Shown piece after piece: positions 59,239 to 59,377 of a stretch of 64,000 nucleotides of DNA. The stretch is from assembly GCA_012269985.1 (NCBI GenBank), contig JAAXJF010000024.1, positions 1 through 64,000 of the forward strand. Reading direction: 5' to 3'. This stretch comes from Acidimicrobiaceae bacterium (GTDB lineage Bacteria > Actinomycetota > Acidimicrobiia > Acidimicrobiales > Ilumatobacteraceae). The translations under genes were made by a program, and so were the position numbers. A model generated the notes under the pieces. That model did no database searches. It saw nothing but the letters and a program-made list of their open reading frames with translations, and was not told the origin of the DNA. The first letter of the stretch is position 1. Each line of letters begins with the position of its first letter.

Positions 59239-59266
59239 AAAAATGAAATCGCCCCCTACCGGGGCG
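59239..59266 (-). terminator. Attenuator (rho-independent terminator) in the leuA leader
   Basis: On the minus strand CGCCCC (59266-59261) pairs with GGGGCG (59255-59250) across a short loop. It is followed by ATTTCATTTTT. It lies about 35 bases after the leader-peptide stop and 45 before leuA, as expected of a transcription attenuator. Confidence 0.7.
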
Positions 59267-59274
59267 GCGGGGGC

Positions 59275-59327
59275 GGGCGAACGTCGTCGGAGCGCGCTCG
59301 CCCTACATAAGGAGAAGAAGCGAGCGC
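59275..59327 (-). promoter_or_regulatory. Antiterminator/pause pairing segments of the leuA attenuator
   Basis: Segment 1 (59327-59320, GCGCTCGC, inside the leader peptide) pairs perfectly with segment 2 (59301-59294, GCGAGCGC). Segment 2, extended to 59303-59295, can instead pair with segment 3 (59283-59275, CGTTCGCCC) with one G-U pair. Segment 3 directly precedes the terminator stem, so alternative folding could control terminator formation. Confidence 0.55.
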
Positions 59328-59341
59328 AAGTTCTGTTCCAC
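59303..59341 (-). CDS. leuA leader peptide, leucine-rich
   Basis: The 12-codon ORF reads MEQNLRSLLLLM and then TAG. It has five Leu, four of them consecutive. It starts at GTG 59341, seven bases after a TATCGT -10 box, so the leader message is itself leaderless. Ribosome stalling at the Leu run when charged Leu-tRNA is scarce would disrupt the segment 1:2 pairing and so permit the antiterminator. Leucine leader peptides before leuA are known in Streptomyces and corynebacteria. Confidence 0.75.
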   Translation of the reverse strand: MEQNLRSLLLLM

Positions 59342-59348
59342 GTCGCCA

Positions 59349-59377
59349 ACGATAGCCCGAGGAGGTGCCGTGAGCAA
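59349..59377 (-). promoter_or_regulatory. Promoter of the leuA leader transcript
   Basis: Minus-strand TTGCTC (59377-59372) and TATCGT (59354-59349) are 17 bases apart. The -10 is seven bases before the leader-peptide GTG. Confidence 0.6.

Follow-up and report, generated by a model that had tools for sequence, protein, structure and literature searches.

A probable leucine attenuator with a built-in terminator and no detectable antiterminator precedes leuA in Acidimicrobiia

The RNA leader upstream of leuA in this actinobacterial genome is, judging from its sequence and that of its relatives, most likely a conserved leucine attenuator. Its kind has been described before in actinobacteria; the variant here carries a built-in terminator and has no detectable antiterminator. 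Two aspects of the leader, both drawn from comparative analysis, are new. First, a platform of two predicted hairpins, which we call P1 and T, appears to stand in place of the LEU pseudoknot of other actinobacteria. Second, one layout recurs ahead of leuA, ilvB and cimA, each time with codons of its own, and, in relatives from the same order, ahead of a different LeuA family. A literature search found no naming of Acidimicrobiia leaders of this kind. The findings extend leaderless amino-acid attenuators, as predicted here, to Acidimicrobiia, and group leuA, ilvB and cimA under a single architecture whose leuA platform is unlike the LEU pseudoknot.

Leader peptide and leaderless start

The locus lies on contig C28 of a 2.15-Mb genome. 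Among named organisms, the closest to it are Ilumatobacteraceae and other members of the Acidimicrobiia, most of them known from metagenome assemblies. The original prediction had named a leader peptide, promoter box, hairpin and T-rich run in order before leuA, and these parts and their coordinates are correct, on the minus strand (Table 1). The leader reads GTG GAA CAG AAC TTG CGC TCG CTT CTT CTC CTT ATG TAG, with Leu at codons 8–11 consecutively and an additional TTG at codon 5; the leuA ATG, at 59195, lies 108 nt past the leader stop codon. A DEAD-box RNA helicase gene (59423–60757, plus strand) is divergent from leuA in the window, by which we mean the whole 64,000-nt stretch of DNA that was analysed.

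Table 1. Features of the leuA leader region, in window coordinates. Peptides here and in the text are given up to their stop codon.
Feature	Position	Strand	Basis or remark
−35 element of leader promoter, TTGCTC	59372..59377	minus	17-nt spacer to −10
−10 element, TATCGT	59349..59354	minus	7 nt ahead of leader GTG
Leader ORF, GTG start, 12 codons, MEQNLRSLLLLM	59303..59341	minus	Sequence; predicted leaderless
Regulatory run CTT CTT CTC CTT (four Leu codons)	59309..59320	minus	First base 18 nt ahead of P1
Hairpin P1	59276..59302	minus	Begins at first base past stop codon; covariation in two clades
Hairpin T, G+C-rich intrinsic-terminator stem-loop	59250..59275	minus	Terminator scan and folding
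T-rich run after T, ATTTCATTTTTC	59238..59249	minus	Sequence
Shine–Dalgarno-like site of leuA, AAAGGA	59202..59207	minus	Sequence
leuA, 2-isopropylmalate synthase, 562 aa	57507..59195	minus	NCBIfam TIGR00970, 789.9 bits against a cut-off of 697.4

For comparison we assembled 78 regions upstream of leuA, 77 from contigs of relatives plus the window, all of them from Acidimicrobiia; because these relatives are kin to one another, the species-swap tests below do not draw on independent samples. A Leu-rich short ORF is present upstream of leuA in 78 of 78 regions, and the Leu-run motif CTNCTNCTNCTTAYGTAG occurs a single time in the 2.15-Mb genome, at the leuA leader, both as expected if the predicted leader peptide is genuine. 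Loss of the Leu codons in relatives, which had been named as evidence against the prediction, was looked for, and the Leu run is kept at every one of the 78 loci. The usual ending is LLL or LLLL followed by one codon and the stop. The last Leu codon of the run is CTT in 67 of 75 leaders, against a CTT share of 19% among the Leu codons of twelve window genes, and the run begins 15 or 18 nt ahead of P1 in 73 of 75.

The promoter elements keep a fixed distance from the leader start. A TANNNT box was found near a start codon in 75 leaders, with its end 6–8 nt from the start in 68 of the 75, and matches at other distances were merely scattered. A spacing of 17–18 nt separates TTGNNN from the −10 in 41 of 75 leaders, and spacings of 14 and 16 nt occur in a single leader each; three leaders without TANNNT (L109, L119 and L120) show by eye a TTGACA about 17 nt ahead of a CANACT-like −10. 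In the window, TTGACA at 59383–59378 was considered as the −35, at a spacing of 23 nt, and was dropped in favour of TTGCTC at 17 nt. Only 3 of 75 leaders have a Shine–Dalgarno (SD)-like motif ahead of their start codon (72 lack one), versus 64 of 78 for leuA itself. Promoter spacing and the missing SD motifs thus support the leaderless start of the original prediction, and the spacing is strong indirect evidence that the leader start codon lies at the 5′ end of the transcript or within a few nucleotides of it.

Two adjacent hairpins conserved beyond the stop codon

Directly past the stop codon comes P1 (GGCGAGCGC...GTTCGCC, 59302–59276), followed by T and a T-rich run, which in the window's genome is interrupted (ATTTCATTTTTC). 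Sequence and folding thus bear out the terminator that had been placed ahead of leuA. When the post-stop region was folded, 73 of 75 leaders gave both hairpins; P1 starts 0 nt past the leader stop in 72 of these 73, and the gap between P1 and T is 0–1 nt in 59 of the 73, with a maximum of 5.

Folded alone, the window's region is merely 1.4 standard deviations more stable than shuffled sequences (z −1.4), an unremarkable value, so the case rests on comparison across species. A mixed-clade alignment (A1, RNAalifold) yielded 3 pairs only, because two clades differ by one base in register, and each clade was therefore aligned separately. In these clade-wise alignments P1 is 97% paired in both clades, with compensatory changes, and in both the joint covariation score of P1 and T is higher than that of any of 500 shuffles or of any slid control; covariation across relatives, put forward as a check of the original prediction, is thus present. 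Swapping hairpin arms between species strongly weakened both hairpins, with z −11 for P1 and −13.9 for T over all leaders, and z −5.5 and −7.9, respectively, for swaps within clades in a non-redundant set. A covariance model of the stop codon, P1 and T found one match in the window's genome, with an E-value of 2e-25, its training alignment having included that sequence. A search of the window and eight related loci against Rfam, including Leu_leader, gave no matches at the gathering threshold and nothing relevant at a relaxed one.

The apical loop of P1 reads CATA in the leuA leaders of many genera (L040, L044, L062, L087, L067 and others) and also in one ilvB leader (L143); it has been lost from the window's leader and those of its close relatives. 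A contact between TATG in the last leader codons and this CATA loop was considered and dropped on inspection by eye, because CATA persists where ATG becomes ACG.

One layout ahead of leuA, ilvB and cimA

In relatives, the leuA-leader covariance model also matched regions upstream of ilvB (acetolactate synthase) and cimA (citramalate synthase). The cimA leader of the window's genome (G000:C48; L154, 1–830, with the cimA start at 804) is laid out as TTGACG-17-TTTAAT-7-ATG and encodes MTRHIAAGIIIC, with the Ile codons III; on inspection, it has a hairpin at the stop codon and then a terminator-like hairpin. The ilvB leader (G000:C49; L187, with the ilvB start at 1480) encodes MKTAQRVFLDLVVGIR, with the Leu, Val and Ile codons of LVVGI, has a −10-like CACACT 8 nt ahead of its ATG, and likewise carries a hairpin at the stop and a terminator-like hairpin. 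All three leaders of this genome thus have a −10-like box 7–8 nt from the start, and in each the identity of the codons matches the pathway (leuA, LLLL; cimA, III; ilvB, LVVGI), a point in favour of attenuation. By our own count of the outputs, ilvB leaders are present at 24 of the 28 loci with enough upstream sequence. Leaders of cimA are present at 18 of 21 loci from the same family and at 0 of 9 from order-level relatives. No amino-acid leaders were found upstream of trpE (0 of 20 loci), ilvD (0 of 13) or leuC (0 of 14), the last in agreement with the original observation that leuC has no such leader.

Order-level relatives whose best match to LeuA is only about 29% identical carry a Leu leader, P1 and T ahead of that gene. 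Leu leaders precede this other-family LeuA at L246, L247, L249, L250, L251, L252 and L254; the two proteins tested, from L246 and L247, are TIGR00973, and the leader at L246 encodes MTVTERRCSRCTEALLLLM. The presence of the same leader before two non-orthologous LeuA families implies that the leader is tied to a step of the pathway rather than to a gene family, and counts in favour of attenuation; in the order-level relatives, either recombination joined leader and LeuA gene or one LeuA gene was substituted for another at the same site. Of 30 loci inspected across the phylum, nearly all show a leuA leader, and MRFGLLLLSCRGEGL, encoded at L137, L139 and L140, is identical to LeuL1 of Streptomyces lividans.

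No alternative pairing found that excludes the terminator

The original prediction included mutually exclusive pairing segments, as in a classical attenuator, and this part lacks support: P1 and T are predicted in 73 of 75 leaders to be independent, compatible hairpins, which fold next to each other whichever of the two positions the ribosome holds, and the remaining candidate pairings are weak or no better than chance. The mean probability of T is 0.91 with a ribosome halted at the first Leu codon and 0.92 with a ribosome at the stop, and in single predicted structures without P1, T is longer by about one base pair. Folding in both ribosome states and species-swap tests of candidate pairings found no antiterminator that would exclude T in Acidimicrobiia leaders. 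We thus describe the leader as working like an attenuator, without calling it a classical four-segment one.

A rival account of the switching step, which leaves attenuation itself untouched, is a classical attenuator: only a stalled ribosome would let the P1 5′ arm or the leader codons pair with an arm of T. We consider it unlikely. Two observations speak for it: pairing between the 5′ arms of P1 and T is mildly stronger than species swaps (z −5.7 overall and −3.3 within clades), and, in the window alone, the leader segment GCGCUCGC is able to pair with the post-stop segment GCGAGCGC. Yet the 5′-arm pairing averages −8 kcal/mol, half the −16 of P1 and well short of the −20 of T, and P1 is the first to be transcribed; the pairing of leader and P1 is at the level of swaps (z −1.1; p 0.03 within clades); the probability of T is the same in both ribosome states; and, by eye, the arms of P1 and T do not cross-pair in cimA leaders. 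A ‘protector’ helix between leader and P1, visible in the fold of the window, was set aside because it is not clearly conserved. Pairing of the P1 3′ arm with T is at or near swap level, and so is that of the Leu run with T, which is marginal.

Control of translation rather than transcription, with the Leu run pairing with the leuA Shine–Dalgarno sequence until a stalled ribosome frees it, is an improbable account. Such a base stem has been proposed for leuA of other Actinobacteria (PMC1262725), and UCCUU in the window is complementary to AAGGA over 5 bp; against it, the pairing of Leu run and SD does not rise above species swaps (z +0.8) and was rejected, and an intrinsic terminator separates the two in nearly all Acidimicrobiia leaders. 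We regard it as highly improbable that P1 is instead a binding site through which an RNA-binding protein such as a helicase, in place of the ribosome, governs readthrough. A DEAD-box protein has been suggested for LEU elements (PMC1262725), the CATA loop is shared by many relatives, and a divergent DEAD-box helicase gene lies beside leuA at 30 of the 57 loci having enough sequence, but the loop is gone from the window's own group, no helicase motif was found beside leuA at 27 of the 57 loci, and a protein sensor would not need codons that track each downstream pathway. That a chance ORF happens to precede an unregulated terminator is barely credible, for although the window's fold is just 1.4 standard deviations more stable than shuffles, the Leu leader is kept at all 78 loci, the hairpins covary, the Leu-run motif is found once in the genome and three leaders each have codons suited to the pathway of their gene.

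A working model of leucine sensing

Taken together, the evidence makes it probable that the leuA leader is a leader-peptide-dependent, leucine-sensing transcription attenuator. Comparison across species establishes the conservation of its promoter-to-start spacing, Leu run, stop–P1 junction, P1 and T. We propose, from the promoter spacing, that the first base of the transcript is the G of the GTG at 59341 or a neighbouring one, and that ribosomes load onto the bare 5′ end of the message. With leucine plentiful, a ribosome would pass the four Leu codons, reach the stop and cover the 5′ arm of P1, upon which T would form and transcription would terminate after about 104 nt. With leucine scarce, a ribosome would halt on the first Leu codons with its leading edge short of P1, 18 nt ahead, leaving P1 free to fold, and RNA polymerase would continue into leuA.

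That P1 itself is the antiterminating state is a tentative reading, favoured over a classical antiterminator formed by segments 2 and 3 because folding gives no competition between P1 and T. The geometry is in keeping with P1 being the structure that signals starvation. Counted from the first base of the codon in the A site, the leading edge of a ribosome lies about 12–13 nt ahead, and, given the distance from the run to P1, a halt on the first Leu codon would leave P1 free, whereas a ribosome at the stop codon would mask its 5′ arm. P1 may then antiterminate by crowding the base of the terminator, 0–1 nt away, or through RNA polymerase. The larger gap between P1 and T in cimA leaders, about 5 nt in the window's genome, weakens the crowding idea. 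Three further points count against an attenuator: the probability of T is all but unchanged between ribosome states, so that folding gives no sign of a structural switch; the T-rich run of this genome is interrupted; and mutations of the leader codons of S. coelicolor leuA had effects inconsistent with classical attenuation, as cited in PMC1262725 (its ref. 22).

A more general and likewise speculative possibility is that Acidimicrobiia use a modular attenuator free of any antiterminator, comprising a leaderless ORF, a run of pathway codons 15–21 nt before a hairpin at the stop codon, and a terminator, in which the ribosome-gated hairpin would make the polymerase ignore the terminator; such a module would serve leuA, ilvB and cimA, each through its own codons, and would work with two LeuA families. 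If the absence of an antiterminator is upheld by experiment, the question arises by what means, other than alternative pairing, a ribosome could control a terminator. That question aside, the leader is ordinary for its phylum.

Comparison with known systems

The closest relatives in the literature are leaders of other actinobacteria. In S. lividans, the leuA leader peptide LeuL1 (MRFGLLLLSCRGEGL) is leaderless by RNA-seq and is followed by no typical Rho-independent terminator, and leaderless leader peptides also precede ilvB, trpE and leuS (trpL, ilvL and leuL2 included; PMC8079986). As with leuL1, the Acidimicrobiia leaders encode a short peptide with a Leu run and leuA downstream, their leaderless start being predicted where that of leuL1 was determined. 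The two differ in that the leuL1 ORF extends beyond the Leu run, without a typical terminator, whereas here the stop lies one codon past the run and is followed by P1 and T.

The LEU element of actinobacterial leuA, described from a 2005 list of genomes that holds no Acidimicrobiia, consists of a pseudoknot whose base stem joins the Leu run to the SD (Seliverstov 2005, PMC1262725). It shares with the present leaders a Leu-run peptide ahead of leuA and structured RNA just past the Leu codons; unlike in the LEU element, the stem between Leu run and SD is unsupported here, and the leaders carry an intrinsic terminator. As judged by folding and swap tests, the conserved pairing is accounted for by P1 and the terminator as two separate hairpins.

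Among corynebacteria, leuA leaders have been listed for Corynebacterium glutamicum, with four Leu codons (PMC4046766), and for C. diphtheriae (PMC5784534). For ilvBNC of C. glutamicum, the start codon of the leader lies one nucleotide from the transcript start (Morbach 2000, as cited in PMC11857589), and loss of that codon reduces expression, according to the same citing article. A leader peptide, a terminator hairpin and branched-chain codons are common to both systems; a third hairpin, in a proposed arrangement of terminator, antiterminator and anti-antiterminator, is described there for ilvBNC only.

In Mycobacterium tuberculosis, ilvB1NC is preceded by an upstream ORF with branched-chain codons and a Rho-independent terminator, gives a terminated transcript of about 120 nt, and has been modelled with a stop-codon ribosome that blocks the antiterminator (PMC13236596). 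By analogy, this would agree in sign with the gating of P1 proposed here, where antitermination would fail once a ribosome sits at the stop codon. The mycobacterial model proposes a mutually exclusive antiterminator, whereas folding and swap tests found none in Acidimicrobiia leuA leaders.

Mycobacterial polycysteine leaderless ORFs also act as attenuators (Canestrari 2020, as cited in PMC13236596 and PMC9094748). Like the leaders described here, which are predicted to be leaderless and leucine-responsive, they are short, amino-acid-responsive ORFs with a run of a single codon; they sense cysteine by what PMC13236596, in citing them, terms translational attenuation, as opposed to Leu and a transcription terminator here. 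The original prediction had regarded a leaderless leader peptide as an unusual setting for attenuation. Given the published cases before leuA, ilvB, trpE and leuS of S. lividans, before ilvBNC of C. glutamicum and in the mycobacterial polycysteine ORFs, it is not; what sets the Acidimicrobiia leaders apart is the platform of P1 and terminator.
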